Translations under genes and position numbers: made by a program
In this document: piece after piece, positions 35,138 through 52,343 of the stretch
How positions within the stretch are numbered: position 1 is the first letter of the stretch
How the letters are laid out: every line of letters begins with the position of its first letter
The notes under the pieces: model-generated
The model's database searches: none
What the model was told of the DNA's origin: nothing
The model's input: the letters and a program-made list of their open reading frames with translations, nothing else
Source of the DNA: Verrucomicrobiales bacterium
Lineage (GTDB): Bacteria; Verrucomicrobiota; Verrucomicrobiia; Verrucomicrobiales; DEV007
Assembly (NCBI GenBank): GCA_029213065.1
Contig: JARGPH010000010.1
Location: 1-64,000, forward strand
Length of the DNA: 64,000 nucleotides
Direction: 5' to 3'

Positions 35138-35908
35138 CTACGGTCTCCAGATCAGTTCCGAAGTTCGACCTGACTTTAAAATCCGCTCATCATCCACTTC
35201 GAACTGCGTAATCGACCGAAAGAAGGGTAGAGGGTTTCCCTCAACCCGACTTTGACCTTCACGGTTCAATTGCAAGAGAAGCCTGAATCCGAAATAACTG
35301 ACCTTCCCGTTCCACGACGCCCCCATGAGGGTTTGCCCGAGCGAATGGACCTCAGGTAGATATTTTTTCACCCAGAGTGGCCGCTTCGTATTCATTTCGA
35401 TCTGCCAGGTTACCTCCTCACTCGAGCAAGTGTATAAATGAGGGCAGTTGAAGAGCCGATTCCAGAACGGCTGTCGTTCAAAACGCTCCCCGAAACAGCA
35501 GTCGATAATAACCAGATCAGGTGAGACCATCCCGGTTCCATCACCGACCGCGAGTTGCAGCAACTGATCCGCCTGCATCTGCTCACCGTTCGTAAAAAAG
35601 AGCCGCCCATCCGAATGCATGTGGGTTGCCAAGTAGAAAACTCTGATTTCCCCTGCAGCCTTGGGAATCTTTAACAGGGTTGCAAGTGACTCAGGAGACT
35701 CATTTATTAAAACACGACTCTGCGAAGGACTGATCGCCCTTTCGATCAATCGGGCACTCCCCTCCCAACCATCGAGGTCAGACTTCCATTTATGCTTTTC
35801 CTGCACAAAGGCATGAAAAACCACATCGGCACGGAGAGGGACCGGGGTTGCGAAAGCGAAAACGCCTGAAAGGACAATAAGGAAGGTGCGGGAAATTCTT
35901 TGTGACAT
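35138..35908 (-). CDS. secreted compact caspase-like protein
   Basis: A 256-residue protein with a signal peptide (cleavage near Leu-Arg-Ala-Asp). The strand Val-Phe-Tyr-Leu-Ala-Thr-His96-Met-His98 could provide the catalytic His. The strand Leu-Val-Ile-Ile-Asp136-Cys-Cys138-Phe-Gly-Glu resembles the Asp-x-Cys nucleophile strand of caspase-fold peptidases. Both elements are in the right order and spacing (about 42 residues). No additional domains. Assignment to the caspase fold is by motif and should be regarded as tentative. It is convergent to the Sel1 pair. Confidence 0.6.
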   Translation of the reverse strand: MSQRISRTFLIVLSGVFAFATPVPLRADVVFHAFVQEKHKWKSDLDGWEGSARLIERAISPSQSRVLINESPESLATLLKIPKAAGEIRVFYLATHMHSDGRLFFTNGEQMQADQLLQLAVGDGTGMVSPDLVIIDCCFGERFERQPFWNRLFNCPHLYTCSSEEVTWQIEMNTKRPLWVKKYLPEVHSLGQTLMGASWNGKVSYFGFRLLLQLNREGQSRVEGNPLPFFRSITQFEVDDERILKSGRTSELIWRP

Positions 35909-36933: not shown

Positions 36934-39900
36934 TCACTGGCGCTCAGGAACCAAGGCAACGCGAAACCCGATAAAGTGACTTCCGACAATCGCCCGTTCC
37001 CCTCTCCTCACGGCGACCCGGCAGCGAAACGGCTGATCAAAATAGTTACCTCCTCTCACCACCCTGCGAACATCTGCAGAAGTGGAGGGAGGCCCGACAG
37101 GGTCGGTAACATCCCCTTCTTTGTAGGTATCCCGCGAATAGACATCGAAACACCACTCAGAGACATTCCCTATTACGTCATACAGTCCCCAATCATTGGC
37201 TTTCTTTCCGCCCACTTCCTGCGAGCCGGAAAAGTCGAATGTGATTTCTTTCTCAGCCCAGTCAGTGGCGATGACAGCAGTCTGAAATGCTTTCTGACTG
37301 TTTCCTGCATACCAGGCCTGCTTACTGACTTCATCCGAGTGATTGTATCCTTTAAAGCTGATAAAATCGCCGGGCAACGGAGTGGCACTGCCGGCCCGGG
37401 CAGCCCGTTCCCATTGCGCCTCGGTAGGAAGAGAAAACTCGTACCCGTCCGGAATCATTTCGCGGTTCGATTCAGTTAGCCATTTTGAATACTGCATAGC
37501 CCCCTCCCAGGTCACTTCTGTCATCGGCTGCTTGAGACTTCCCCAGGTCGCATTCTCCTTTTCCTTCATGACCCATTTTCCGTTTCGCTGCTCAATCGGG
37601 CAGGTCACGGCGCCTTCATCAATCCAGTCCCCCTTTTCGATTCCGACTGAATTCATGAAATCGAGAAAGTTCTCAATCGTCACCTCAGTTTCAGCAACCC
37701 AGTATCCCTCCGACAACTTGACTTGACGCAACGGTTCATCTTTAGGAGCTCTCGGAGAACTGACATTTGAGCTCACCGAAAGTTCATTGTAGATCGCCAC
37801 CAACTCGTCCTGAGCCGTGCCCATGCCGAATGTCCCCGGTTCGATCCAGACCAGTTCGGGTAATCCTTTCAACGTGAGGTTAGCCTCGAGCAGAGAGGTA
37901 TCATCCCCTTTCACATTCTCCTTCTCAACCACCTCCTCTTTACCCGACGCGACCGAAGAATCGGTTCCCTTCATTTTTTCAGAATCCAACGTGGTAGTTA
38001 CATTCCCTTTCTCCTTTCCCTTGGAGTCTGTCTCCGGGGTATTCATCACCTCAACCACTTTCTCACCAATGAGACTGTCCTTCTGCTTACCCAATGAAGC
38101 GATGGCGGAATCGGAGAGCGAAGGCAGCTTTGCCTTTGCCTCTTTCTCGATGCGTTTCACCTCTTCATCAATGGCCTCGACCGTAAACCCCTCAGCCGAC
38201 GATGACGAAATCTGGAGAAGCCGTTCACCCTCCGACAGAGATTTCATCGCGGCATCAGCAAGAATCTTGCTATCACCATAAGCGAAGGTTCTGATTTGCT
38301 TCTCAAGTTTCCGCACTTCGTCTGCGGGCATATCAGTCAGATTACCATCGATAAACTTATCAAAGTTATTGAAGGAGCTAACCGCGTATTTGCTCAAGTC
38401 ATCGCGCTTCTCCGGAAACATCTCGTGAGCCTTCGCGGCGAAAGCGAGCCGGTCTATTCCCGCGACATCTTCCGACTCGGCTTCCCATTTCGCCCACCTC
38501 TCAGCAGGGTCGGGTTTCAGGAACACGACTGCAAGAACGACAAGCAAAACAGCGCCTCCAATACCCAGCTTCAGGATCAGTGATCTTTTTGCTTTCTCTC
38601 CCGACTCCCAGGCCTGCAGCACTTCATCCTGTGAGAAAGGCAATCCATCCGGAAGCATCATTGTCCGTTGCGTCTTCGGGCACTTCACCGAAGCCCCTTC
38701 GACCCAGTCACTGATCGATTGAATGCGGAATGGCTTTGTCGAAGCATAGGGACTTTTGACAAACCCCGGACGATCGGTATCCAGCGCGGCACTGAGAAGT
38801 GGTAGCTTGTCAGGGAGTTTAAACTCATTTCCATCGGAGGACTTAATCGTCGATCCGGAGACCCACGATCTACCTTCAACTTCGATCTCTTTTCCGGAAA
38901 AAGGATCAACGATTATACCATGACTTGTCGGCAGTGCCTTACGCGCGTCAACCGTCAAACGCCCCTCCGGCAGCGGCAAATTGCCGGGAAGGACGAAATG
39001 TCCACCGGTAGCAGCACACGTCAACGATTCGCCGGCCTTCCAAACCGCAGGTTTAATTGATTTACTACCGGCAAACGGCGGCGTCACCTCGACCTTGGTG
39101 AGATCGAAATCGGTGGCTTCAGGTAGAGCAGGCAGTGCCCGCGGGAGTTGGATTTTCTTTCCGGCCGGATCTTCGAGAATTTCCTCTGGCTTCCACTGAT
39201 CGAGAGAAACCCTGAAGGACGATTCCGGATCATAGGGACTGAAAACAAGCCCGGTAATTTTCTCATCCGGCACAGCCTCGGGAAGCGGTAGATCTTCCGG
39301 CAACTTCAACGGCCTTCCCGTCGCAGGGCAGGAAATGATTTTACCGGGCTCCCAGTCTCCGATCACCACATCATACTCCTTCTCACCTTTTTCGTAGGGC
39401 GTCTTGATCTTCCGGCCTCCGGCAACAACTGCGACCAGCGGTGGGATATCCCGGGGAAGTTGAACGGTTACCGCTGGATCGCCTTCAAGAACAACAATCG
39501 ATCTTCGCTCCCAGAGCAGCCCTTCAATCGGAATACTAACACCCGTCTTCGGATGGAGGATCGCCCCCGGATTCTTCGAATCCAACTCAGCCTCATCAGC
39601 CCAGACAGGAAACCCGTCCGCCTTGGAAGGCAATTTCATCAAAAGACCGGAAGCGTCACATCGTATTTGCTTTTCCGCCCGCCAGTCTCCTACAGCAACT
39701 TTCTGCCGCTTGCCCGGTTCATAAGGGCTTTCGATCACCCCCGTAACGAAAGCACCTTCAACTTCCTCATCCTGAACGAGGAGCCCCGTTTTCGGAACCG
39801 GCAGTGCAGCCCCGGATGGCGTTATAATCTCACGCCCGGTATGAGGGCACTTTAAAGAATGATCAGGAAGCCAGTCCTCGCCGTCCACCTGAAACTCTTT

Positions 39901-42900
39901 CGCTCCGGAGTCGAACGGACTGACGAGGTAGCCCGGACGATCCTTTTTCGCAGAAGCCTCCAGAGCCGGCAAACGGGGAGGTAACTTGAAAACCCTGCCC
40001 TTGAATTTAGAACTCTCAATCTCGCGTCCCTCCACCCACTGGTCAGGGGGGATTATCTGATCCCGCTTCTTCGCATTCGAATAAGGACAGGCTACGACAC
40101 CATTTCTGCCATCGAGAATAGCAGCCTGCAACGGCGGCAGTTCAGGAAGTAGAAAGTTACGTTTTGATTTTCCACAGAGAATTTTGCTTCCCTCGACCCA
40201 GTCAGCACCGGCTATCTCAATGGACTCAGTTTCCGGAGAATAGGGACTGTAAACATAACCTTTCTCTCCGGTTCTCTCAAAATCCACTTTTGCCGTAAGA
40301 GTCCATTCCGGAAGCTGATCGGGCAGTTTGTAAAGATAGCCGCTCCCGGAAAGTCGAAGTATTTTTCCGGGCTCCCAGTCTTCCTCTTCGGAAATCTCTA
40401 TGATGTCATCTGAATACGGAGATCTTACTTCACCGAATTGATGATCAGAGATCACAGCCGCAGATTTAATTTCAGGAATCGAATCGGGTAACAACAACTC
40501 GATGTGATCATCTGAATCGACTTCAACAACAGCACCTGCATTCCAATTGTGAGACGCAACCTCAAGGCGCGCTCCTGTCTGCGGAACGATTATCACACCG
40601 GGGCCCTCCATGACCTCCGCTGTCATTCTTGGAAGCAGCTCATAGGAAGAGGGCAACTTGAAGAAACGGCCCGTGGTACGACATTTGATCTCTCTACCGG
40701 GAATCCAGTCCTCTGCGGAAACCTCCTGCTCTTCGTGATCGGAGTAGGGGGAAAAAGCCTTCAGCTTGCCGCCTTCTTCCAGTGTTTCCCCGACGAGAGG
40801 AGGCAACTCATCCGGAAGTCTGAAAAACTCACTCGAATCCCCGCATTGAACTAACGCTCCGGGGACCCACTTCTCCCCGGGAACCTCAACCCTTTTTCCG
40901 GCTGCATAGGGACTCTCAATCGTTCCTGTAAAACCGTTCTGAAGGGGAATATCACTGACGACCTCTGGAAGCCTCGGTAGCTTCTCAGGGAGTCTGCAAA
41001 GGCATTTTGATTCGGGGCATTTAAGGATTTCTCCGCGCTTCCACTGCGATGCTTCCACCGCAATCTCAATTCCGGAATATGGGGAAAGAACTCTGTCAAA
41101 GATACCATCCTGAACCGTGGCCTTTTTCAACTCCGGAAGCTTTTCGAGTAGCAGGAAACTCCGACCTTCACGCTCAACACTCAAGCCCAGCTCCCATTCA
41201 TCCGGAAATAAATCCGTCTTCGCTCCAGAATAGGGATCAACAATCCATCCCGGCTTATCGAGCAAATACTTACTGACTTTCAGCTCGGGAATCACCGAAG
41301 GAAGCAAAAACTCTTTACCATCTTCAGCGGTAATCTTCTGATTTCCCCGCCATTCTTTCCCGGGAATTTTCTGCTCCCGATTGGTAAATGGATTAATGAC
41401 AATCCCGTCGCTGCCATCTCCATGGATTCTCGCAACATGCTTTCGATCCGGCAAATCATCGGGCAATCGACAGAGCAAATCAGTAATCTGACAAACGAGA
41501 ACTTTTCCCTTCTGCCAATCACTGTCGGCGACCTTGAACTCTGCATCGACAAACGGACTTGTTACGACCCCGCGGTATTCATCGACTGACTTGATCAGTT
41601 TCGGAGCGGGAAGTTCATCTGGCAGAACGTACTCACGATTGCGCGTCGAAAGGATAGTTCCTCCGACCCACAAATCAGGATCGATTGCCTGGCAATCCTC
41701 TTCACTGGGAAAAAACGGACTCGATACCTTGCCGGGTTCGTTCTCGTAAATAATCGCTTTCAAACGCGGAAGAGAAGCAGGCAACTTGTACTGCAGACCT
41801 GAAACGGGACAGGTGCCACGCTCTCCCTCCTGCCACAGTTCAACCCCTTCCGTCTCCAGGAAATTAATGCGGGTATTCTGGTCCACAGGAATATACGGCG
41901 AATGAATAATCCCAGGTTCTTTCACGTCAGCGAGGCACACGAGAGCTTCAATTTGAGCCGAAAGCTGAAACATGTCTCCCGTCTCCTGACAGATAAACTG
42001 CTTGTATGGCCTGATCTCCGGCCCCTGCAGCGAAAAGCGCTTTCTCGTAATCGGGTTGCGAAATTCGCCCGGTCCGGTCGAGACCGCCTCAGGAAGATTG
42101 TAAGATTGATATTGCGGGCCCGCAGAGACTGATATCGACGCCTCTATATCCGATTTGGGAAGAGAAGGAGGGCCTGAACGCCGATGTCTGTGACTCGATT
42201 GAGTCCCCGCAGATCCGGCAGTTCGATCAGAACTCCCCCTCGAAGACGAAGAAGCGTAACCGCCAGTGCCCGTCCCCGGAGAAGCCGATGTTTTCCCGGA
42301 AACGGAAAAATCGATCTCGGAGAAATTGAAATTCTCTCCTTCCGCATCACAGATGCGGCGAAGGATATCAGAACACTTCGTTTCGCTCTCGGCTGCACCG
42401 CAAATGTGATCACACAGCAGATTATTGGATTCCTCAGTCAGTCCACTGATGCTGGAATACCCATACCGGGATTGGTAGGCGACAGAAGGCACCGGCTTAC
42501 CACCGATTAACCGGTAGAGTCTCGCGCAGAAGACAACTGACGCAGGGAAATCCGCACCTACCGAGCTTATAATCGCGTCATTGGAATCGAGGGTCTGCTC
42601 AACATCAAACTCTTCAGAACTGAACGAGATCGAAGCCGGCAACGAAAGCGGATTCACTTCCAACCGGTGCCGGGGCCATTTCGGAATCGTCTCGCTGAGA
42701 AATTGATCTTTGGAACTGCTATTCGAAGGGACAAGAAGAATCTCCGCTTCCCCGACAGTCGGGACAGGCACTCCCATCTCCGCAGTATAGTCGAGCAGGT
42801 CAGCGAGAGTGCTCAACAAGGGGAGCGCGTGGGAAAATTGAAACCGCCCGTGCCTTCTCACCACATCTCTCAAAAGAATCCCCTCGCGCGGCTCGAACTC

Positions 42901-44127
42901 AATCACTGCTTCCCCACTCGAGAACCAGTAAAAGGCGAGCGGTCGCAAAAACGCATCCGGATAGCCACGACCTGAACCCTGCAAAACAACGTGGGAATCA
43001 ACGAGCTGTTTCACTTCATCGAACGTTTTCTCATCGCCATCCGCAAAGAGCCGGGTATTCAAAATCGCGATGAGCGTGGAAGCCTGGTCCTGCTTTCTCC
43101 TTGCGAGCATGAACTTGCTCCAACTGCAGTCGAGAGGACTTCCTGTCAGATTATCAAATACGTCATCGAACCGGTCCGATCGCTTCTCAGCAATCGATCG
43201 GTTTTCATCGAGGACAGGCGGAGACCTACGCGCCTTGGACGATCCCTCATCATCGTCGACGAGATCGGAACAGCTCAAGGCTTTCTCAGGGAATCCCGCC
43301 TTCTTCTTCAAATAAAGATCCAGCGCGGAAAGGACCTCTGAAGCGGTCGAATAACGCTCGCCGCGTTTCTTCGCCATCATCTTTTCAAGAATGGCGGCAA
43401 GATCCTTATCACATTCAGTCACCTTGAAAGGGCGATCATAATTGACATGCTCGGCCTCAACTTCGTGCCTGTTATCAAGGTCCAGTGGCTTCGGCTTCTT
43501 CCCCTGAAGAAGATACCACATCGCAACACCCAGTGAGTATAGATCACTCCTGCTGTCGAGGTCTTCATCTCTGATCTGCTCAGGACTGGCAAACAACGGA
43601 GTGCCCTTCACTCCGGGCGCTGACTGCATCGTGTCGTCCAGAGTCTTCGCCAGACCGAAATCGATTAACTTAACGCCCAACTCGCCATTGCGGAGTCGTC
43701 CCAGCATCATGTTGGATGGCTTAATATCGCGATGAACGATTCCCTGTCCATGCGCCTCAGCGAGTCCAAGACAAGCCTGCCGACCTATCAATGCGACATG
43801 CTCTTCAGGCAGTCCTTTCTTCTCAACACAGAGTTCGTTCAGGTCGCCCCCCTCACAATACTCCATTGCACAGTAAAGATCTCCCTCTGGAGTCTCCCCG
43901 GCATAACTGAAAACGACAATATGTTCGCATTGAAACTGCAGGGCTAAAAGTGCTTCGATTTCACTGATGAAATCAAACTTCTTTCGTCCATCAATATTAT
44001 CGATCACCTTGATCGCGAATTGCTTCCCTTTGAAAAGAGGATGCTTTCCCCGATACGTCGAGCCAAACGAACCGGTTCTCGGCTCAAATGACTGATCGAT
44101 GATGTAATCGCCGATCTTTTCTTTCAT
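36934..44127 (-). CDS. giant Ser/Thr kinase with 21 WxxG/LP repeats, TM helix and FGE-like domain
   Basis: A 2397-residue protein. The kinase (about 7-275) has Gly19-x-Phe-Gly-Ser-Thr-Tyr, Lys40, Glu57, His132-Arg-Asp134-Ile-Lys-Pro-Ser-Asn, Asp156-Phe-Gly and Ser-Pro-Glu, so it should be active. Residues about 330-610 read like a second kinase without the His-Arg-Asp motif (pseudokinase). About 21 repeats of 55 residues (about 680-1835) follow. A single membrane helix (about 1845-1868) puts the C-terminal half outside. The last 310 residues form an FGE/SUMF1-like domain (Pro-Thr-Glu-Ala-Gln-Trp-Glu, Asn-Val-Ser-Glu-Trp, Gly-Phe-Arg-Val-Ala). Chlamydial Pkn1 has kinase plus FGE, without these repeats. 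It is the last gene of a six-gene operon. Confidence 0.92.
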   Translation of the reverse strand: MKEKIGDYIIDQSFEPRTGSFGSTYRGKHPLFKGKQFAIKVIDNIDGRKKFDFISEIEALLALQFQCEHIVVFSYAGETPEGDLYCAMEYCEGGDLNELCVEKKGLPEEHVALIGRQACLGLAEAHGQGIVHRDIKPSNMMLGRLRNGELGVKLIDFGLAKTLDDTMQSAPGVKGTPLFASPEQIRDEDLDSRSDLYSLGVAMWYLLQGKKPKPLDLDNRHEVEAEHVNYDRPFKVTECDKDLAAILEKMMAKKRGERYSTASEVLSALDLYLKKKAGFPEKALSCSDLVDDDEGSSKARRSPPVLDENRSIAEKRSDRFDDVFDNLTGSPLDCSWSKFMLARRKQDQASTLIAILNTRLFADGDEKTFDEVKQLVDSHVVLQGSGRGYPDAFLRPLAFYWFSSGEAVIEFEPREGILLRDVVRRHGRFQFSHALPLLSTLADLLDYTAEMGVPVPTVGEAEILLVPSNSSSKDQFLSETIPKWPRHRLEVNPLSLPASISFSSEEFDVEQTLDSNDAIISSVGADFPASVVFCARLYRLIGGKPVPSVAYQSRYGYSSISGLTEESNNLLCDHICGAAESETKCSDILRRICDAEGENFNFSEIDFSVSGKTSASPGTGTGGYASSSSRGSSDRTAGSAGTQSSHRHRRSGPPSLPKSDIEASISVSAGPQYQSYNLPEAVSTGPGEFRNPITRKRFSLQGPEIRPYKQFICQETGDMFQLSAQIEALVCLADVKEPGIIHSPYIPVDQNTRINFLETEGVELWQEGERGTCPVSGLQYKLPASLPRLKAIIYENEPGKVSSPFFPSEEDCQAIDPDLWVGGTILSTRNREYVLPDELPAPKLIKSVDEYRGVVTSPFVDAEFKVADSDWQKGKVLVCQITDLLCRLPDDLPDRKHVARIHGDGSDGIVINPFTNREQKIPGKEWRGNQKITAEDGKEFLLPSVIPELKVSKYLLDKPGWIVDPYSGAKTDLFPDEWELGLSVEREGRSFLLLEKLPELKKATVQDGIFDRVLSPYSGIEIAVEASQWKRGEILKCPESKCLCRLPEKLPRLPEVVSDIPLQNGFTGTIESPYAAGKRVEVPGEKWVPGALVQCGDSSEFFRLPDELPPLVGETLEEGGKLKAFSPYSDHEEQEVSAEDWIPGREIKCRTTGRFFKLPSSYELLPRMTAEVMEGPGVIIVPQTGARLEVASHNWNAGAVVEVDSDDHIELLLPDSIPEIKSAAVISDHQFGEVRSPYSDDIIEISEEEDWEPGKILRLSGSGYLYKLPDQLPEWTLTAKVDFERTGEKGYVYSPYSPETESIEIAGADWVEGSKILCGKSKRNFLLPELPPLQAAILDGRNGVVACPYSNAKKRDQIIPPDQWVEGREIESSKFKGRVFKLPPRLPALEASAKKDRPGYLVSPFDSGAKEFQVDGEDWLPDHSLKCPHTGREIITPSGAALPVPKTGLLVQDEEVEGAFVTGVIESPYEPGKRQKVAVGDWRAEKQIRCDASGLLMKLPSKADGFPVWADEAELDSKNPGAILHPKTGVSIPIEGLLWERRSIVVLEGDPAVTVQLPRDIPPLVAVVAGGRKIKTPYEKGEKEYDVVIGDWEPGKIISCPATGRPLKLPEDLPLPEAVPDEKITGLVFSPYDPESSFRVSLDQWKPEEILEDPAGKKIQLPRALPALPEATDFDLTKVEVTPPFAGSKSIKPAVWKAGESLTCAATGGHFVLPGNLPLPEGRLTVDARKALPTSHGIIVDPFSGKEIEVEGRSWVSGSTIKSSDGNEFKLPDKLPLLSAALDTDRPGFVKSPYASTKPFRIQSISDWVEGASVKCPKTQRTMMLPDGLPFSQDEVLQAWESGEKAKRSLILKLGIGGAVLLVVLAVVFLKPDPAERWAKWEAESEDVAGIDRLAFAAKAHEMFPEKRDDLSKYAVSSFNNFDKFIDGNLTDMPADEVRKLEKQIRTFAYGDSKILADAAMKSLSEGERLLQISSSSAEGFTVEAIDEEVKRIEKEAKAKLPSLSDSAIASLGKQKDSLIGEKVVEVMNTPETDSKGKEKGNVTTTLDSEKMKGTDSSVASGKEEVVEKENVKGDDTSLLEANLTLKGLPELVWIEPGTFGMGTAQDELVAIYNELSVSSNVSSPRAPKDEPLRQVKLSEGYWVAETEVTIENFLDFMNSVGIEKGDWIDEGAVTCPIEQRNGKWVMKEKENATWGSLKQPMTEVTWEGAMQYSKWLTESNREMIPDGYEFSLPTEAQWERAARAGSATPLPGDFISFKGYNHSDEVSKQAWYAGNSQKAFQTAVIATDWAEKEITFDFSGSQEVGGKKANDWGLYDVIGNVSEWCFDVYSRDTYKEGDVTDPVGPPSTSADVRRVVRGGNYFDQPFRCRVAVRRGERAIVGSHFIGFRVALVPERQ
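38622..42090 (-). repeat. protein-level array of about 21 repeats in the kinase
   Basis: Each unit of about 55 residues reads roughly Gly-x-Val-x-Ser-Pro-(Tyr/Phe), then about 10 residues, Trp-x-x-Gly-x-x-Ile-x-Cys-x-x-(Thr/Ser)-Gly-x-x-(Phe/Leu)-x-Leu-Pro-x-x-Leu-Pro. Trp is present in 20 units, Cys in about half. The DNA copies are strongly diverged, so the array is old. It resembles no domain I can name. Confidence 0.85.
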
Positions 44128-44134
44128 GAAATAG

Positions 44135-45649
44135 TCACTGTGTCGGCTGAACAGGCTGGTCTTCCTGTGTGTTTTTCCAAAGCTTACCTACCCGACGACT
44201 CTTGATCGTAAGTGTAGGTCTGACAACCGGCTTGCTATTTGCAGTCGGAACCCCGTCTCCGCCAGTTGATTCAGAGGCATCCGTATTCTCATTCGCCTTC
44301 GCCGGCGCCTGCACATCCACCTTGCGTGCCGGAACAGCGCGAAGAACAGGTCTCGCTTGCGTTTGGCCCGGGCTTACATACTGACGGGTCTCATACTGAG
44401 GTGGCGCGACGAGCCGCCGCCCGTCAGGTAGCATCGCACCGACTGGCAGGATCTCGGAAACCGGCCGGAATCGAGCAGGCTCATCAACCGGCTCGGCGGG
44501 CGCAGGTGCAGGATTTGCGGCCACCTTTTTTGCAGGCGGTTCAACCGGTTTAACCGGGGGCACATCACTTTCACCTTTCATTTCCGGAGCAGGATCGCTC
44601 TTCGAATCGGCGGGAGTCGTCTCAATCTTCGCGCTTTCCTGAGCTGAATTTTCTCCGGAAAGGCCTGTCGGTTGAGTAACGACCGCAACCGGCTTCGCGG
44701 TATCAACCTTTTCCATCTCCCTGCTTTTGTCCTCTTCTGATTCAGCTGGTGGCACCGTCTCGCTCGCTTTTACTTTCAACGCATCCGCTTTCCGCCCATT
44801 CGGTTTCACCGGCAACGCATCCACCCTTCCCACCGCAGCCTGAATCTCTCCCGTTCGCGATTTTTCAGCAATAGCGATACTCTTTCGGTCAGCCAGAGGA
44901 AGATAGACCCAGCCTTCCGGAACAGCGCCTTTGTCCGCACCTGAACTGTTCTGAGTCAAAAGCCAGCTAAACGATTCGTTTTGTTTTGAAGAGCCTTTCA
45001 GATAGTCAGCGAATTCCGTTGAAACCCAAACGCCTTTCTTCGGAGACCATTCGAATTCAAATCCTGTAGTGGGATCAACCAACTTGTCCTCATACCCCTC
45101 AGGCCGTTTGGTGTCACTGTCGGGAATTCCGGCAACCCCGCCTTCAGAGTCTGCGCTCTTTTTCAACTCGTCCTTTTCAGAAACTTCCCCGTCTTTGTCC
45201 CCGGGAACCTCAGCCGGCTTTTTCGCAAGCGGTTGAGCTTTCATCTCTCTGTTCACGGAAACTGGCTTTGCCTCCGGTTTCTCCATCTCCTGAGCAGATT
45301 CTTTCGCTGCCACTTTCTCCGGCAGCGGCTCAGGCTCGGCAGCAGGTTTGACAACGTCTCCGTCTGATGGTCGCAAAATCGAAAGCACCCTCTCGGCATC
45401 CTCTTTCGTCATCGTAATTGTCTCACGCTCTTCGGTATTCAAAAACGCCTCAAGCTCTTCGATGACACGTTGGGCCCCTTCTGTCGAAACGGCTTTACTA
45501 CCTTCCGGAGAAGCGCCCGCTTTGTCCGAATCGCATCCCACCAGCAAATTGCTACCCAGCAAGACGGCGAGGAAATTAACGATCAACTTCAGACTGACTC
45601 GCGGGAACTGCGCAGGCAGGAACTCTATTCGTCGTTCGTATTGATCCAT
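44135..45649 (-). CDS. Pro/Lys/Glu-rich lipoprotein
   Basis: A 504-residue protein with a long positively charged N-terminus and a hydrophobic segment ending Leu-Leu-Val-Gly-Cys (Cys near 39), consistent with a lipoprotein. Most of the chain is low-complexity, rich in Lys, Glu, Pro, Ala and Ser, and probably disordered. One more ordered patch (about 180-260) holds Asp-Pro-Thr-Thr-Gly-Phe-Glu-Phe, Gly-Val-Trp-Val, and Pro-Glu-Gly-Trp-Val-Tyr-Leu-Pro. The start has AGGGG at good spacing. It lies 7 nt before the kinase gene and is probably translationally coupled to it. It could span the periplasm as a tether; this is inference. Confidence 0.75.
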   Translation of the reverse strand: MDQYERRIEFLPAQFPRVSLKLIVNFLAVLLGSNLLVGCDSDKAGASPEGSKAVSTEGAQRVIEELEAFLNTEERETITMTKEDAERVLSILRPSDGDVVKPAAEPEPLPEKVAAKESAQEMEKPEAKPVSVNREMKAQPLAKKPAEVPGDKDGEVSEKDELKKSADSEGGVAGIPDSDTKRPEGYEDKLVDPTTGFEFEWSPKKGVWVSTEFADYLKGSSKQNESFSWLLTQNSSGADKGAVPEGWVYLPLADRKSIAIAEKSRTGEIQAAVGRVDALPVKPNGRKADALKVKASETVPPAESEEDKSREMEKVDTAKPVAVVTQPTGLSGENSAQESAKIETTPADSKSDPAPEMKGESDVPPVKPVEPPAKKVAANPAPAPAEPVDEPARFRPVSEILPVGAMLPDGRRLVAPPQYETRQYVSPGQTQARPVLRAVPARKVDVQAPAKANENTDASESTGGDGVPTANSKPVVRPTLTIKSRRVGKLWKNTQEDQPVQPTQ

Positions 45650-45670
45650 TTCCCCTACTCCTATTTCCGA

Positions 45671-46543
45671 TCAACGGACCGGCATTTTTGTTCCATTCAA
45701 AGCAGTAGCGGCAAGTCCGTTTGCCAGAATTTTCAACTGGCTCAACCGGTCTTTTGATATCTGGCCTTCCGGAATTTTCCAGTCCCTTGCCAGATCAACG
45801 ATTGATCGAACTTTAGGTAGAGACTCAAGCAGATACTGCATTTCATTCGATGATTTCAAGTCATCGCGGGTTATCGATTCCAACTCCGCAATCATCAATG
45901 AAACGTAATCCTGCGCCCTGAGATAATTCGTAATCTCTCCCGTGTAGTTATCCTCCATCACCTCGACAGCAATTGAAGCCCCGTGGAACCATCCGCCACA
46001 CACAATCATAATGGCTTTACTCCGGTCATTCCCTTCAGCCTCCTTAAGTGCCCTGACAATATCCTGACGGTACAGTCCCAACTGAAAGAAAGCATCAAAC
46101 CAATCTCCGCGGTTCACCGAATCTTTGATCTTATATCCTCTGCTCAGGCTTTCCTCAGGAACGTTGAGGTCTTTCGCCAGTTGCTCAATGTATTCGGCAC
46201 AGGCATTAAGTGTTTCAGCATCTTTGGCTTTCAGCGCCAGAACTCCGTCGGCGACTTTGACCCCCAGCAGGATGCACCTCCGGGAGTCTTCACTGATGCT
46301 GTCGATATCAAACTCGAGACCTTTGCCGCCCCGGTAGTATTCCTTCCACTGATCCGGAGTAATCCCGAGATCCTCCTCCAGAACAATCAACCGATCCACC
46401 GAAGATGAGGCACTCTGAAGAATATCATCCTTCCCCTTATAGTTCATCGGGTTGAAGCCTTCCTTAGCGTCCTGAGCAACGGCGGCGGTATGAAAAACAC
46501 ACCCGGTGAACAGCAGGAACAGAGAGTTTCTAAAAACGTTCAT
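45671..46543 (-). CDS. secreted helical protein, unknown
   Basis: A 290-residue protein with a signal peptide ending Ala-Val-Ala-Gln. The mature chain is mostly alpha-helical (for example Val-Asp-Arg-Leu-Ile-Val-Leu-Glu-Glu-Asp-Leu-Gly-Ile and Leu-Asn-Ala-Cys-Ala-Glu-Tyr-Ile-Glu-Gln-Leu-Ala) with no recognised domain. The start ATG at 46543 was chosen because the signal peptide begins there; a longer frame to 46654 runs into the upstream gene. Gaps on either side are 32 and 21 nt, within the same operon. A periplasmic partner of the transporter or kinase ectodomain is the obvious guess. Confidence 0.72.
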   Translation of the reverse strand: MNVFRNSLFLLFTGCVFHTAAVAQDAKEGFNPMNYKGKDDILQSASSSVDRLIVLEEDLGITPDQWKEYYRGGKGLEFDIDSISEDSRRCILLGVKVADGVLALKAKDAETLNACAEYIEQLAKDLNVPEESLSRGYKIKDSVNRGDWFDAFFQLGLYRQDIVRALKEAEGNDRSKAIMIVCGGWFHGASIAVEVMEDNYTGEITNYLRAQDYVSLMIAELESITRDDLKSSNEMQYLLESLPKVRSIVDLARDWKIPEGQISKDRLSQLKILANGLAATALNGTKMPVR

Positions 46544-46575
46544 TTTCTTAATAACCAATTTTCTCTTCTTAAAAT

Positions 46576-47022
46576 TTACAGATTTCTCCGCTTCAAAGTG
46601 ATCCCGTAAAAGGCTAACCAGATTACCCCTGAAATGAAAGCACTCATTAGGCATATCCCCCCTTTTTGGAGGACTCGTGAGAGATCCATTCCTTCAGTTG
46701 AGAGCATCCTCAACTTTTCACTCAGATAAAGATACAAGCGAATCAAACAGGTCGCAAGAATCACGAGGGAGACGGCAACACTTACAAGCCCTGAAACTCT
46801 TTGCAGTCCAGCCCTCCCGAAAAGGGCCACCCCGCCCAGTGCGAAAGTTCCCATTACCAACCAGGAAGCCATTTTACTACCGCCATGAACTTCATGAAAA
46901 TGAACCAGTCCCATCACCGGAATGCGCATTAGCGGAAACAGAAATCCCAAAAGCAAGACGATCAGGGTAATAACCCACCAGACCGACAGAATGATGATTT
47001 GTTTTGAAATTCTACTTTCCAT
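46576..47022 (-). CDS. four-helix membrane protein, unknown
   Basis: A 148-residue integral membrane protein with hydrophobic segments near residues 10-33, 50-72, 80-98 and 118-140. It is Leu/Val-rich with no catalytic motif seen; His-x-His-Glu-x-His (about 41-46) after the first helix is a possible metal site. It sits 33 nt after the ABC transporter gene and 32 nt before the secreted helical protein gene, so it belongs to the same operon and may be a subunit of the same complex. Confidence 0.7.
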   Translation of the reverse strand: MESRISKQIIILSVWWVITLIVLLLGFLFPLMRIPVMGLVHFHEVHGGSKMASWLVMGTFALGGVALFGRAGLQRVSGLVSVAVSLVILATCLIRLYLYLSEKLRMLSTEGMDLSRVLQKGGICLMSAFISGVIWLAFYGITLKRRNL

Positions 47023-47055
47023 ATATTGGTCTCCCTCTCTCTACCTGGCCCGGAA

Positions 47056-50000
47056 TCACTGCCCGGTCTGTCTCCGAATCAGCGACGCCAGAATAATGGA
47101 ATAGCAAACAAGGATCCATAGAACCAGAATAAGCATTCCCATCTGCGCATCGCGAATTCTCACATAGCGAATCCCCTGATAGTAGAGGGCATGAATGTCT
47201 CTACGACTGTCCACGGTATCAGGCTCCTGTCTGATAGAGGTTTTGAACGAGCCGTCAGCATCGAAGACCGGCATAAAATCACCCTCTTTTTTGTGCTCCC
47301 CCATTCGGGACGGTATCACCAGAAGATTCTGCCAGGAGGCATTCTCCCTCACTTCTTTCTGAAACTTCTCCGATTTCTTCTCCTTCTCTCCCGAATCAAA
47401 ATCCATCTGCATCCACTCCACCTTTTCACCATCCCCCTCTGTAAAAACGGGCATCTTGGTTTTATTCGACATCTTTGGAACGATACGACCGAAGATATGG
47501 GAGACATCCATGACGCGCTGGGCCGCGTAACTGGGAAAAAACAGGCTCGCCATTCTAACCGAAGGGGTCATCTCGGGGATCTTTACGACAAACCCGCCAA
47601 ATAGAATCTGTGGAATGAGAACGAGAGGGACCCAGAGCACTGCCTGGGTCGAATTCTGAACCAGCGCTGAAATGGTCAAGCCAATCGCGACTCCCACCAC
47701 GGAGATCAACAGCAATGCGATCACTTTAAGCCCTAACACAGACATGACAACGCTTCCCAACTTGAGCTCTCCCGAAGCACCGGCACCGCGGCTCTCCCCA
47801 TTGGACCTGCTTGCGTTCTCTATCACATTGTTAGAATCGAGAAGCGCATCTTCGAGCATGAAGAAACGAAGAAACCGGTAGGTAAAATGATACCGAATCG
47901 TATCCGTCTGCCAGGAGGGAAGTGTGTCCGGGAGCGTAAACGGTTGTTGCGAAATACTGCAAATCACCGTCTCACCCGGTACCCAGAGCTGTTCCCGCTC
48001 CCTGTCGGAAAAGACTTTCCAACCGCCCACCTTGAGAAAAGGAGAGCGAGCCATGCCGGGAGCGACATCGACGGCTTCAAAACCATTCACAGGATAGTCC
48101 GGCAGCGAGTCGGGCAACTTCAGCGTTTCCCCCGTCATAAACTCAACAGTCTTCCCGGGCCGCCATAAAGCTTCGCTTTCAACCCCCAGTATCAACCCGG
48201 GCATGGAGACGGACTCAACGAGTCCGGGACCCGCAACAACCGCCGTTTTCGGAACTGCATTCCCGTCGCTGTCGCCCCCGGCCGTGATGAGCAGCCCCAT
48301 CGAAATTTCCTCGGCCAATTCTGTTCCGGCAGTCGGCACGGGATACAATCTTGAACGCAACAACTCCTGAAACTTCTCGTCTTTCCCGTCTGCCATCTCG
48401 GGAAACTTCATGAAAGCTCCGGGATCAGAATTATGAAAAGCGAAGGCAGAACAATAAATTGTCAGAAACAGAAGAACAGCCTGAATAATCGTGAGGAAAC
48501 TCAGGAAACCGAACTTACTGAATATGTAGGCATTGATACCCTGCCCGGAAACACGCTCACGCCTGAAAATCGACAACTCATTCACGATCTGCTGCGCTCC
48601 ATTCGAACATCCGAACCACATCGTAGCGACAACAGCGAGAAATCCTCGCAAAACGACTCCCTCTGCCACCCAACCGATCAAAAACCCAATCAAAAAGGCC
48701 TGGGCAAAAAGAAAGAGCAAATTAAGTCTGTCTGCGGATACTATTTTCCACTGCCTGCGATTCAACAGGGAAATCATCCTGCCAAACCCGACCTTACGCA
48801 CACGGTCACGTCTCGCCGGCTTGCCGGATTTGCGTTTTCTCGCGACGGGCTTGAATTCCCGCCGATATCTCGACTTTCGAAACGCATCCTCCCACTGCAG
48901 CCCCGTCTTTCCTGCACCCTTAATCTCCTTGAAGATTTTGGAGTAACTCGCAAGCTTTCCACTTCCCACACTTCCGCTGGAGGATGCTCTCGCGGTTGTC
49001 GATCCGGAGCTTTCGCCCCCACCTAAAAAGTAATCGCGAGCGGACCCCGGGGGACCATCGAAAATTACTCGTCCCTCCTGCACGATTACAAAACGATTAC
49101 AAATATGCGCGTTCTCGAGCATGTGAGTGGTGCAAACCACTGTAGTCCCCGCCTCGGCAAGCTTTTGAAGAGCCGTCATCAGCTCCCACTCAGTCGCGGG
49201 ATCCAAACCTGAAGTAGGCTCATCAAGAAAGAGAACCGATGGACTCGACAGCATCTCCGTTGCGATACTGACACGCTTCCGCTGTCCGCCCGACAGCTTC
49301 CGGATTCGCTTCGTCTGATGCTCCGTAAGATCCAGCATCGCCAGAGTCCTGTCGACGAGCGATTCCACTTCCTGCGTCGGTAAATTAAGCTTGAGATTGG
49401 CACTGATCGTGATCGCATCACGTACCCTGAGTTCCCGATGAACGATATCATCCTGCGGGACAAAGCCGACTCCGGCGTTCATCACGGCAGAGCGGTCCGA
49501 TATCTCCAGTTCATTGATCCAGACCTTCCCTTTTGTCGGAGGAGCCACTCCGCAAAGCGCATTCATCAAGGTGGACTTTCCCTGACCACTTCCACCAATG
49601 ATCGCCACAAACTCCCCTGAATCGATGTCCAGATCTACATTGTCTAAAATGGCGATCTTCTTTTTCCTCCCGCTATCCTCTTCGACCTTCTCGACGATTC
49701 GTTTCAAACCACGAGCCTGGATACTGCCGAGATTCTGATGATCGAGTCGCTTCAGGTGATCCACAAAATAGGCAAACAAATAGGGCCCGATTCTGAAACG
49801 ATCACCGAAGACCAGCTTTGAACTGTCAAAAGACTGTCCGTTTAGTATCGTATCGTTAGATCCCCGATTCGTGAGATACCACATCGAATCCCGCTTCTCG
49901 AGGACCGCATGAACTGAAGAGATTTTCCTTATCTCTTTATCCAGAACCATACGCTTCCAGCCACTCTCAACCTCGCGGTCCCCCCTCCCGATTTCCAACT

Positions 50001-50364
50001 TCGTGAGACTCTTCAGTGGAATCTCTCCGGTAGGCCCCGCCTTTATCCCCGCGACAGTTGGCGCGTCAGGCGTTGCATCGAACAAATACCCCGCCGCTCC
50101 AATCTGGAGGTGGGTAGGAGAAAATACCGGTCGCGAATCGCCGGGGGAAACGGGAGCCTCCCCGACAGCGACATCGAGAGATCCTGCAATATAGTGAAGG
50201 AACCAGCTCGAATGCTTGGGATCCCAGAAAATTTTCAGCTCGAAGTCACCAGTGTTACCCGTGTCTACCGGGAAATCAGAACTCGCCCCGCTTCCAACAT
50301 GACACTCCCGATCGAAGAGCACTTCGCCCCCGACTTCTTCCACTGACCGGATTCGACCTTTCAT
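47056..50364 (-). CDS. FHA-ABC transporter with two inserted WxxG/LP repeats
   Basis: A 1102-residue protein of the ABCG-like half-transporter type. Residues 1-100 look like a degenerate FHA domain (Val-Gly-Ser-Gly-Ala-Ser-Ser-Asp). A good FHA domain follows (about 118-197: Ile-Gly126-Arg127, Ser149-Ser-x-His152, Asn-Asp-Thr) for phosphothreonine binding. ATPase: Walker A 257-264, Leu-Ser-Gly-Gly-Gln 357-361, Asp381-Glu382. The ABC-2 membrane part has about six helices. Between the third and fourth, residues 708-818 hold two copies of the kinase repeat. In ABCG topology this loop would face outward. The second large loop (about 960-1060) is Lys/Glu-rich. Confidence 0.88.
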   Translation of the reverse strand: MKGRIRSVEEVGGEVLFDRECHVGSGASSDFPVDTGNTGDFELKIFWDPKHSSWFLHYIAGSLDVAVGEAPVSPGDSRPVFSPTHLQIGAAGYLFDATPDAPTVAGIKAGPTGEIPLKSLTKLEIGRGDREVESGWKRMVLDKEIRKISSVHAVLEKRDSMWYLTNRGSNDTILNGQSFDSSKLVFGDRFRIGPYLFAYFVDHLKRLDHQNLGSIQARGLKRIVEKVEEDSGRKKKIAILDNVDLDIDSGEFVAIIGGSGQGKSTLMNALCGVAPPTKGKVWINELEISDRSAVMNAGVGFVPQDDIVHRELRVRDAITISANLKLNLPTQEVESLVDRTLAMLDLTEHQTKRIRKLSGGQRKRVSIATEMLSSPSVLFLDEPTSGLDPATEWELMTALQKLAEAGTTVVCTTHMLENAHICNRFVIVQEGRVIFDGPPGSARDYFLGGGESSGSTTARASSSGSVGSGKLASYSKIFKEIKGAGKTGLQWEDAFRKSRYRREFKPVARKRKSGKPARRDRVRKVGFGRMISLLNRRQWKIVSADRLNLLFLFAQAFLIGFLIGWVAEGVVLRGFLAVVATMWFGCSNGAQQIVNELSIFRRERVSGQGINAYIFSKFGFLSFLTIIQAVLLFLTIYCSAFAFHNSDPGAFMKFPEMADGKDEKFQELLRSRLYPVPTAGTELAEEISMGLLITAGGDSDGNAVPKTAVVAGPGLVESVSMPGLILGVESEALWRPGKTVEFMTGETLKLPDSLPDYPVNGFEAVDVAPGMARSPFLKVGGWKVFSDREREQLWVPGETVICSISQQPFTLPDTLPSWQTDTIRYHFTYRFLRFFMLEDALLDSNNVIENASRSNGESRGAGASGELKLGSVVMSVLGLKVIALLLISVVGVAIGLTISALVQNSTQAVLWVPLVLIPQILFGGFVVKIPEMTPSVRMASLFFPSYAAQRVMDVSHIFGRIVPKMSNKTKMPVFTEGDGEKVEWMQMDFDSGEKEKKSEKFQKEVRENASWQNLLVIPSRMGEHKKEGDFMPVFDADGSFKTSIRQEPDTVDSRRDIHALYYQGIRYVRIRDAQMGMLILVLWILVCYSIILASLIRRQTGQ
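47908..48240 (-). repeat. two copies of the kinase repeat inside the ABC-2 domain
   Basis: Unit one ends Leu-Trp-Arg-Pro-Gly-Lys-Thr-Val, Thr-Gly-Glu-Thr-Leu-Lys-Leu-Pro-Asp-Ser-Leu-Pro. Unit two runs Pro-Gly-Met-Ala-Arg-Ser-Pro-Phe to Leu-Trp-Val-Pro-Gly-Glu-Thr-Val-Ile-Cys and Phe-Thr-Leu-Pro-Asp-Thr-Leu-Pro. Both match the consensus in the kinase protein. Confidence 0.8.
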
Positions 50365-50400: not shown

Positions 50401-51285
50401 CTACCAATTCACTTTAATATCCTTGGAGATAGGCATTCCGGGTCCTCGAGGTGGAGGCCCCCCACCCTGACCGGGTTGCGGCTGTGGTTGTCCGCCCGGT
50501 TGGTGATTGGATGGCTGCTGCGGAGTGAAGGTCTGCCCCCCTCCCTGTCCGGGCAGGGTGACCGTATTGTTTGACGGATAAGTGACAATTGCCCCTGACG
50601 GATTCGAGGGGTTGAATGACGGCTGCCCCCCCTGATTCTGAACCCCGCCGCTTGGCTGCACTCCGCCATTCTGCTGAACACCACCGGCAGGTTGCTGCCC
50701 TGCATTGCCCTGCGAATTTGAAGCGACCGAGGTACGAGCCCCCTTCTTAATCTTGGTCGCGAACTCCGCAACAGGAGGAATCTCCCACTTGCCTGAGATC
50801 GCAGCTCGAACGTTCACATCGAGGTGATAGGGCTCGCCGGTGCTCTTCTCGAGAAGATCGTATTGAACGCCACAGCGATAAGGATGGGTCAGTTTCTCGG
50901 GCATTGAAAAATCAGTGAGAACAATGTTCTGCACATCGAACCGCTCGCGAATCGCCTTCCGGTGCTCTTCGGTTGCTCCCCGGAGTCGTATCAGCAACTC
51001 TTCCTCACTGAGAATCTCAGGCGCATAATCCTGCGCCTTCTTGACTTCAGCCTTGGCGATTTCGAGCTGACCTTTGAGATCATCAACCTGCTTTTGAAGC
51101 GCTGACGCATTTCCGGATGCGCTGGATCCGTTTGCCTGCAGCTTAGCGACGCTCTCCTCCAGTTTACCAACCTTTGCGAGAGCCGCGTCCCTCTCGTCCC
51201 GAAGTTGCTGAACCTGAGGGTCCTCTTGAAAACATCCCGACAAAAGGAGCGTAGTACAAACCAAAATGAAAAATTGAAGCTTCAT
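50401..51285 (-). CDS. coiled-coil lipoprotein with Gly/Gln/Pro-rich tail
   Basis: A 294-residue lipoprotein. Lipobox Leu-Leu-Ser-Gly-Cys near residue 18. A coiled coil follows (about 24-90: Gln-Gln-Leu-Arg-Asp-Glu-Arg, Leu-Glu-Glu-Ser-Val-Ala-Lys-Leu, Leu-Gln-Lys-Gln-Val-Asp-Asp-Leu). A compact domain covers about 95-185, and the rest is Gly/Gln/Pro-rich with approximate repeats such as Gly-Gly-Val-Gln. AGGAA lies before the start. It is the first gene of the operon that continues through the FHA-ABC transporter (36 nt) to the kinase. A promoter should lie in 51286-51430. Confidence 0.78.
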   Translation of the reverse strand: MKLQFFILVCTTLLLSGCFQEDPQVQQLRDERDAALAKVGKLEESVAKLQANGSSASGNASALQKQVDDLKGQLEIAKAEVKKAQDYAPEILSEEELLIRLRGATEEHRKAIRERFDVQNIVLTDFSMPEKLTHPYRCGVQYDLLEKSTGEPYHLDVNVRAAISGKWEIPPVAEFATKIKKGARTSVASNSQGNAGQQPAGGVQQNGGVQPSGGVQNQGGQPSFNPSNPSGAIVTYPSNNTVTLPGQGGGQTFTPQQPSNHQPGGQPQPQPGQGGGPPPRGPGMPISKDIKVNW

Positions 51286-51776: not shown

Positions 51777-52343
51777 TTAGTTTCCACCGGGAGTGACAGA
51801 GTCAGCAGCGCTTGGGCTGCCACCGGCATTGGGATTGGACGTCGCTGATTCGATTGGACCGGAAGGAGAACCTTTAACAGGGGACCTCGCTGTGCCGCGG
51901 CGTCCAACGAATGCCGCCCATGAAGGCAACCCGAGTGTCGGATCCGTGCGAGCCATGAAGACATAAGCATAAACAGATCCTGTGTACTGCGAGCGAAACT
52001 GAACAACTGCATCCGAAAGCGATCTGCGGTCATCAAGAATCAAAGTATCCACTTCACTGTAAACATAAATATCCACATCTCTGGCGGCCTGATCACCGGA
52101 AGCCATAATCACATAGTCCAGACCTCTCGTGACCGGAATCTGAACTCTCACCATTTGCCCGCGAAGGAGAATCCCTGCATCGATAGGTGTCACATAGAAA
52201 CCGCGATCCTTAAATTTTACCGCGACCTGATGCGCTCTCTCTTCAGCCATAGGCGGATCCGCCTTAGCTGTGTTTCCGGGCATCATCATGTAAGCCCCTG
52301 CAAAAACGAGCGCGATGGCTCTTCCCATTTTGATTGATTTCAT
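51777..52343 (-). CDS. secreted beta-rich protein, unknown
   Basis: A 188-residue protein with a signal peptide ending near Ala-Lys-Ala-Asp. A beta-rich domain (about 55-135) has Gly-Leu-Asp-Tyr-Val-Ile-Met-Ala-Ser-Gly-Asp and Asp-Val-Asp-Ile-Tyr-Val-Tyr, then Gly-Ser-Val-Tyr-Ala-Tyr-Val. This is reminiscent of the bacterial pre-peptidase C-terminal domain, but without a protease. A Ser/Pro/Gly-rich tail follows. It is likely co-transcribed with the small lipoprotein. Confidence 0.68.
   Translation of the reverse strand: MKSIKMGRAIALVFAGAYMMMPGNTAKADPPMAEERAHQVAVKFKDRGFYVTPIDAGILLRGQMVRVQIPVTRGLDYVIMASGDQAARDVDIYVYSEVDTLILDDRRSLSDAVVQFRSQYTGSVYAYVFMARTDPTLGLPSWAAFVGRRGTARSPVKGSPSGPIESATSNPNAGGSPSAADSVTPGGN

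Follow-up and report, generated by a model that had tools for sequence, protein, structure and literature searches.

A probable zinc-less ribbon repeat in a giant kinase and a neighbouring FHA-ABC exporter of a Verrucomicrobiales bacterium

The window analyzed here, a 64,000-nucleotide stretch of contig JARGPH010000010.1 from a Verrucomicrobiales bacterium (GCA_029213065.1), encodes a giant membrane-anchored Ser/Thr kinase (K) with a tandem array of 21 repeat units. An FHA-ABC exporter (A) in the same gene cluster carries two further, partial units. A degenerate zinc ribbon, akin to MJ0042, LysW and ZitP, is the probable identity of the unit, with two beta-hairpins and with knuckles stripped of most of their cysteines, an ancestry that we infer from profile comparisons, structure predictions and one cysteine-rich unit. 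For the system as a whole we lean slightly toward a joint reading, in which a ribbon-derived, metal-free unit would form a cytoplasmic stalk or scaffold in K, kinase and exporter would be coupled by phosphorylation read by FHA domains, and the exporter units would be a later addition. The features of K, with lengths in amino acids (aa), were:

36934..44127, minus strand: giant membrane-anchored Ser/Thr kinase K, 2397 aa (Pfam: Pkinase, E 7e-41; FGE-sulfatase, E 2e-38)
43330..44073, minus strand: kinase domain, residues 19-266, with both HRDIKPSN and DFG
42415..43149, minus strand: second conserved region, possibly kinase-like (BLAST of K residues 19-571 with residues 36-556 of a related kinase, locus L086, E 1e-46)
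38614..42069, minus strand: array of 21 putative zinc-less ribbon units, residues 687-1838 (profile matches; fold predicted; homology by profile comparison)
38524..38580, minus strand: single predicted transmembrane (TM) helix, residues 1850-1868 (hydropathy scan)
36955..37860, minus strand: FGE-sulfatase (SUMF1-like) domain, residues 2090-2391, predicted extracytoplasmic (Pfam)

The Pfam scan gave no match for the second conserved region, and no PASTA domain in K. The single predicted TM helix stands behind the array, and the units of K are therefore expected, with moderate confidence, to be cytoplasmic.

The repeat unit and its probable ribbon origin

The units follow each other at a spacing of 51-64 aa, and their number agrees with the original prediction of about 21. 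Their consensus is G-x-V-x-S-P-Y/F ... V ... W-x-x-G-x-x-x-x-C-P-x-T-G-x-x-F-x-L-P-x-x-L-P, largely as predicted. The Pro at the start was found in all 21 units, as part of Ser-Pro in 12/21, and the Cys of the second knuckle in 12/21. In an alignment of 20 units (A1) the Trp was invariant and the first Leu-Pro present in at least 90%; the first unit, left out of A1, had no Trp. Identity among the units within K averaged 30%. Whole K reached 1050 bits with the unit profile, whereas 500 shuffles of its repeat region gave 18.5 bits at best; this demonstrates regularity only, since the profile was built from K's own units.

When relatives were searched with the unit profile, the same module was recovered at the tails of small lipoprotein-like proteins, where it usually formed the last residues. 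The tail consensus is G-F-V-x-S-P-Y/F/H ... V-D-V ... G-x-x-V-x-C/D-P-Y-T/S-G-K-x-F-x-V-P, and in many tails an Asp replaces the sole conserved Cys. Profiles of the K units and of the lipoprotein tails aligned with an hhalign score of 45.3 (probability 97%). Lipobox-like signal peptides were seen by eye, so the tails should be located outside the membrane.

No model in Pfam or NCBIfam covered the units, which had also been anticipated. The possibility that they belong to a known domain with many unrelated contexts proved half right: other contexts exist, in the form of the lipoprotein tails, but the scanned libraries held no named domain for them. The near-matches in Pfam were SH3_VIII-1_N (0.06) and, among 29 members, zf-Nse (0.11), SH3_VIII-1_N (0.16) and SepSecS (0.26), in one member each, none of them reliable. 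Against PDB sequences the lipoprotein-tail profile had zero matches up to E 10, and a mixed profile (A2) had 268. The latter included immunoglobulin constant domains (E 2.3e-5 for the best whole sequence, no better than 5.8 for any single stretch), which we took as convergence because only the W-x-x-G-x-x-x-x-C stretch was common and the score summed several immunoglobulin domains per chain.

Three lines of evidence, each moderate when taken alone and all in agreement, point to a ribbon origin: (i) profile-profile comparison, (ii) structural matches of AlphaFold models, and (iii) a unit with three of the four ligand cysteines. In the first, hhalign aligned the K-unit profile with 18 MJ0042-type ribbons of the phylum at a score of 16.7 over 36 columns, both knuckles in register. 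Among the controls, the highest score was 12.1 for 100 shuffles of the columns and 11.6 for 21 windows taken from an unrelated alignment. The lipoprotein-tail profile reached 23.8 over 27 columns against the same ribbons (controls: 17.3 for shuffles, 15.0 for unrelated windows). The ribbons came from 14 of 96 phylum genomes; 18 of the 23 double-CxxC segments found were used, including the second segment of L209 and omitting those of L207, L208, L210, L212 and L213. The window's own genome had no place above the TIGR02098 cut-off.

For the second, K units 7-9 were modeled with an input alignment of six stretches of K itself, each three units long. The model had two hairpins per unit and a mean predicted local distance difference test (pLDDT) of 75. 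Among the 985 chains aligned by VIA, the top row was LysW 5eio_C (Z 5.6, 1.5 Å over 39 residues), followed by LysW 3wwn, LysW 5k2m and ZitP 2nb9. The lipoprotein tail was modeled with a mean pLDDT of 94 (at least 89 in three of five models), and the five entries at Z >= 2, out of 53 chains aligned, were all LysW or ZitP (Z 2.6-3.6). The third line comes from G522, a genome from another family of the order: in the first unit of its giant kinase the two knuckles read CPRC and CPTT, in this order.

Several observations weigh against a ribbon ancestry. In a direct profile-sequence search with the ribbon profile the best unit scores stayed within the shuffled range, and the ribbon family had been picked after inspection of the motif. 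The lower VIA rows for units 7-9 were RING-like, DnaJ and unrelated folds (Z 2-3.2), two of the five tail models were poor (pLDDT 55-60), and neither the unit model nor the tail model had a Foldseek match at E <= 0.001. The Z values of 3-6, all below 8, may reflect a mere common arrangement, and no one test is decisive. If the unit were instead a small all-beta repeat of separate origin that resembles zinc ribbons by convergence of the turn motif, this would account for the negative direct search, the modest Z values and the Asp in place of the Cys in many tails. We consider this unlikely, because the full-length, in-register profile alignment beats all controls, ribbons are the top structural matches for two models, and the three-cysteine unit exists.

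A degenerate ribbon thus remains our interpretation of the unit, although we do not class it as a zinc ribbon. Among the 21 K units, a cysteine occupies ligand position 1 in 1/21 and position 3 in 12/21, and positions 2 and 4 in none, and we therefore filed the unit as ribbon-derived. Nowhere did we find all four ligands, the best case being the G522 unit; the predicted models do show both beta-hairpins, each turn bearing a knuckle. With the MJ0042-type ribbon (TIGR02098), ZitP and LysW the unit shares the two hairpins, the knuckle spacing, the G-x-x-V/I-x-C core and the F-x-V/L after the second knuckle. Unlike them, it has lost most ligands, has no curated model and occurs in long tandem arrays. 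A ribbon of this kind would have become a small two-hairpin domain that lost its zinc, with the knuckle CPxC turning into SPY(S/A), and CPxCG into CPxTG or less.

Such losses have a precedent in Cren7 and Sul7, archaeal chromatin proteins that are zinc ribbons with the zinc lost, and whose profile searches also retrieved 5K2M and 2NB9 (PMC5906684). The putative ribbon derivation, the loss of metal and the retrieval of these two structures are common to both cases; Cren7 and Sul7 differ in being archaeal chromatin proteins, and are likened to our units by fold and metal loss, not by a sequence link. If the ribbon origin is true, the units are a further case of zinc loss in this fold, from bacteria and in long arrays. 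Within a limited literature search, zinc-free ribbons in long arrays are not known to have been described; that search, which is no proof of absence, also found no description of the repeat. A domain for which Pfam and NCBIfam have no model gains a probable identity and a distribution, from small lipoproteins throughout the phylum to kinases with up to 22 units.

Distribution of the module and architecture of the arrays

In the sampled phylum genomes, 29/387 matched the mixed profile at E 0.001 and 48/387 the lipoprotein profile. Both counts include the window's own genome and are lower bounds, as only part of the candidates were scored in large runs. From the GTDB contigs, 305 stretches fitted one pattern and 299 of these encoded a relative. 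The labels of the 79 loci shown, from the best 80 of the 299, were all Verrucomicrobiota groups, except for one Proteobacteria and one labeled just as bacterium, which points to a Verrucomicrobiota origin of the window as well. Arrays are rarer than the tail module. They were found in 2/33 genomes of the genus, and at the level of the order 7/386 genomes had any match at E 1e-4, five of them with many units: the window's genome, G018 from the same genus, and G464, G511 and G522 from another family. On the joint reading, the module is a tail domain of small Verrucomicrobiota lipoproteins and was multiplied in the kinases of a few lineages.

Two minor observations concern the tail lipoproteins. 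In several Chthoniobacterales (L126, L160, L170, L172 and L178), the gene was seen by eye near prephenate-dehydrogenase-like and aroA-like genes. It was also retained in two genomes of 0.9 Mb (L097 in G106, L099 in G085), which hints at an important role.

The contig of G018 begins within the array, so that the kinase domain is out of view; 17 units and the FGE-type end are present. Each of the 17 units had its collinear K unit as best match (17/17), with 38-69% identity, compared with 30% within K. This makes the array old, with separate conservation of every position. Unit by unit, the window array and those of G464 and G522 were not collinear (rho -0.32, -0.05 and -0.31), and a common ancestral array across families is therefore not demonstrated. 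The G018 array gene has an in-frame TGA (L047:1229-1231), which may stem from misassembly or mean that the gene is broken.

The arrays came in three architectures (units of the relatives were counted with an iterated profile at domain E <0.1). In K and G018, all units found precede the TM helix. The giant kinases of G464 and G522, in open frames of 2585 and 2665 aa, have 18 units before it and four behind. The small kinases of G464 and G511 (1033 and 986 aa) consist of a kinase, a TM helix and then seven units. With units before the TM helix, units behind it and lipoprotein tails all observed, the module seems to serve on either side of the membrane. The order-level kinase in L086 had no unit. 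From a reading of its sequence, a long helical-looking stretch lies between its kinase part and its TM helix, and the position of the stalk can therefore be filled by something else.

On the joint reading, the 21 units of K would be a long cytoplasmic stalk or scaffold that keeps the kinase head away from the membrane anchor, with the FGE-type domain facing the opposite side. The main rival makes the array a PASTA-like device for ligand sensing or docking, in which single units or groups of units recognize partners and binding switches or targets the kinase. Kinases of the PASTA type (PknB, StkP) combine a Hanks-type kinase, a TM helix and a repeat array behind it. K has the same three elements, and the small kinases of G464 and G511 have them in the same order; K differs by its lack of a PASTA match, its array before the TM helix and an FGE-type domain behind it. 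Sensing would suit these small kinases, the four units behind the TM helix in the giant kinases, and the position-specific conservation between K and G018. The units found in K and G018 nevertheless all stand before the TM helix, and position-specific conservation also fits a stalk with defined unit-unit contacts. We regard sensing as possible, if doubtful. Somewhat more speculative is a metal-free module, made by Verrucomicrobiota from a zinc ribbon and working on either side of the membrane (as lipoprotein tail, outer sensor array, inner stalk of giant kinases and insert in an exporter loop), whose single units would be docking sites and whose kinases of about 20 units would be addressable scaffolds linking surface lipoproteins, the kinase and FHA-ABC export.

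Units in the exporter and its partnership with the kinase

The features of the exporter were:

47056..50364, minus strand: FHA-ABC exporter A, 1102 aa (Pfam: ABC_tran, E 1e-30; ABC2_membrane, E 6.5e-12)
49771..49929, minus strand: core of an FHA-like domain, residues 146-198 (Yop-YscD_cpl match short of its cut-off, E 1.8e-5)
49210..49647, minus strand: ATPase domain, residues 240-385 (Pfam)
47905..48225, minus strand: two partial units, residues 714-820, in a long membrane-domain loop that is predicted to be extracytoplasmic (profile match; position in the ABC2_membrane profile)

The units of A (residues 714-769 and 770-about 820) are similar to those of K, as originally claimed: a profile built from K units only scored 39.4 bits against A (domains 15.3 and 22.4), and the best of 1000 shuffles 8.0. 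The match was limited to the second half of each unit (positions 17-46 of the 54 in the profile), and the first unit had no Ser-Pro start. When the whole genome was searched with the profile, the best places outside K were the two A units (E 1.6e-5 and 0.001), the next place being at 0.027; BLAST with K also picked up the region (E 1.3e-4). The module is thus common to two proteins of one gene cluster, its only clear places in the genome, which bears out that part of the prediction. The closeness of these two genes is not explained by chance alone; either local exchange between neighboring genes or a shared partner could lie behind it.

The units break the ABC2_membrane profile between positions 121 and 134. 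Ahead of them a looser hydropathy scan showed three hydrophobic segments, the first and third strong and the second weak, and flagged a doubtful one at residues 708-726, ahead of the first unit. The same order of strong, weak (1.26-1.84) and strong segments was found in ten related transporters, with a weak first segment in L087. Because the units sit behind three hydrophobic segments, the loop would be extracytoplasmic if the fold is ABCG-like, which we hold with moderate confidence. A search of PDB sequences with the first three segments gave no match. A stricter hydropathy scan recognized only two segments ahead of the units, which counts against this placement and makes the topology of the loop uncertain.

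The related transporters (L084-L090, n = 7; L258-L260, n = 3) carried units in 0/10 cases, although three of them come from the array-bearing genomes G464, G511 and G522. The long loop at the unit site is missing in at least L087, L089 and L090. In G018, a genome 77% complete, no orthologous exporter was found. The expected co-occurrence of the repeats in both proteins elsewhere was therefore not borne out, and neither was the view that their sharing strongly suggests an interaction or a common ligand: the predicted membrane sides are opposite (with moderate confidence), relatives have unit-free neighbors, and lipoprotein tails with the module occur throughout the phylum. That the units of K and A bind one another or a common ligand is the weakest reading and improbable. 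In its favor, no other proteins with units turned up in the genome, both genes lie in one cluster, and the stricter scan would permit a loop inside; against it, the ABC-2 profile places the two sets of units on opposite sides, the ten relatives lack units and those of A are only half conserved.

On the joint reading, the two exporter units would be a later, lineage-specific local acquisition. By analogy, K and A more likely communicate via FHA domains than via the shared units. The Mycobacterium tuberculosis kinase PknF and the FHA-ABC exporter Rv1747 form a two-gene operon, and the kinase positively modulates the exporter (PMC3908365). The window resembles this in that an FHA-ABC exporter is encoded with a Ser/Thr kinase; it differs in its larger cluster, with genes for the proteins P327 and P188 (listed below) and lipoprotein-like genes. 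Like Rv1747, A unites an FHA domain, an ABC ATPase and an ABC-2 domain in one protein, its FHA-like match being below the cut-off. Among three exporter relatives scanned, FHA (PF00498) was above the Pfam cut-off in two, as the first N-terminal domain in L258 (residues 53-110) and as the second in L088 (residues 130-195).

A kinase gene was present in the exporter cluster in the window, in L086 and in G464. The partnership of kinase and transporter thus occurs in both relatives without common units. K would phosphorylate sites read by FHA domains and so regulate export by its neighbor, as PknF does with Rv1747. With the window, the build of kinase-FHA-ABC systems outside mycobacteria becomes testable.

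The gene cluster and neighboring genes

The genes of K and A are separated by two or three genes. The other genes of the cluster were:

44135..45649, minus strand: lipoprotein-like gene, 504 aa, 7 bases upstream of K
45671..46654, minus strand: P327, 327 aa, with homologues beside the transporter or kinase in relatives
50401..51285, minus strand: coiled-coil lipoprotein-like gene, 294 aa, directly upstream of A
51777..52343, minus strand: P188, 188 aa, with homologues in the corresponding cluster of relatives

In L086, P327, P188 and the repeat-less kinase and transporter are grouped together. In G464, ~5 kb separate the transporter from the giant kinase, and two P327 homologues come after the transporter. 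G522 has P327 and P188 homologues ahead of the kinase, and the transporter on a separate contig. In relatives, kinase and transporter, or transporter and a P327-type gene, thus adjoin without common units.

Upstream of the transporter in G464 and G522 (L258, L260) we noticed by eye a conserved order of a large kinase-like or repeat protein, a sigma-factor-like gene and a small lipoprotein-like gene. The large protein had a kinase match in L260, as did the G464 gene. The array kinases of G464 and G511 and their small neighbors (L241: 8007-15761 and 6260-7018; L242: 7444-10542; L243; L244) end in an apparent second common module. A copy of this C-terminal module in the 504-aa protein was suspected but not supported, the match not being significant.

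Beside the kinase cluster, two paralogous caspase-like (HG-motif) proteins with Sel1-like repeats were recognized by eye on the plus strand (31240-33171 and 33205-35106). The first has LIDGFP at the usual position of the Cys and looks inactive. In the gene at 35138-35908 (minus strand), a THMH motif is followed by a retained Cys pair. The 33205-35106 gene, the 35138-35908 gene and a 219-aa gene have homologues that adjoin the array gene in G018.

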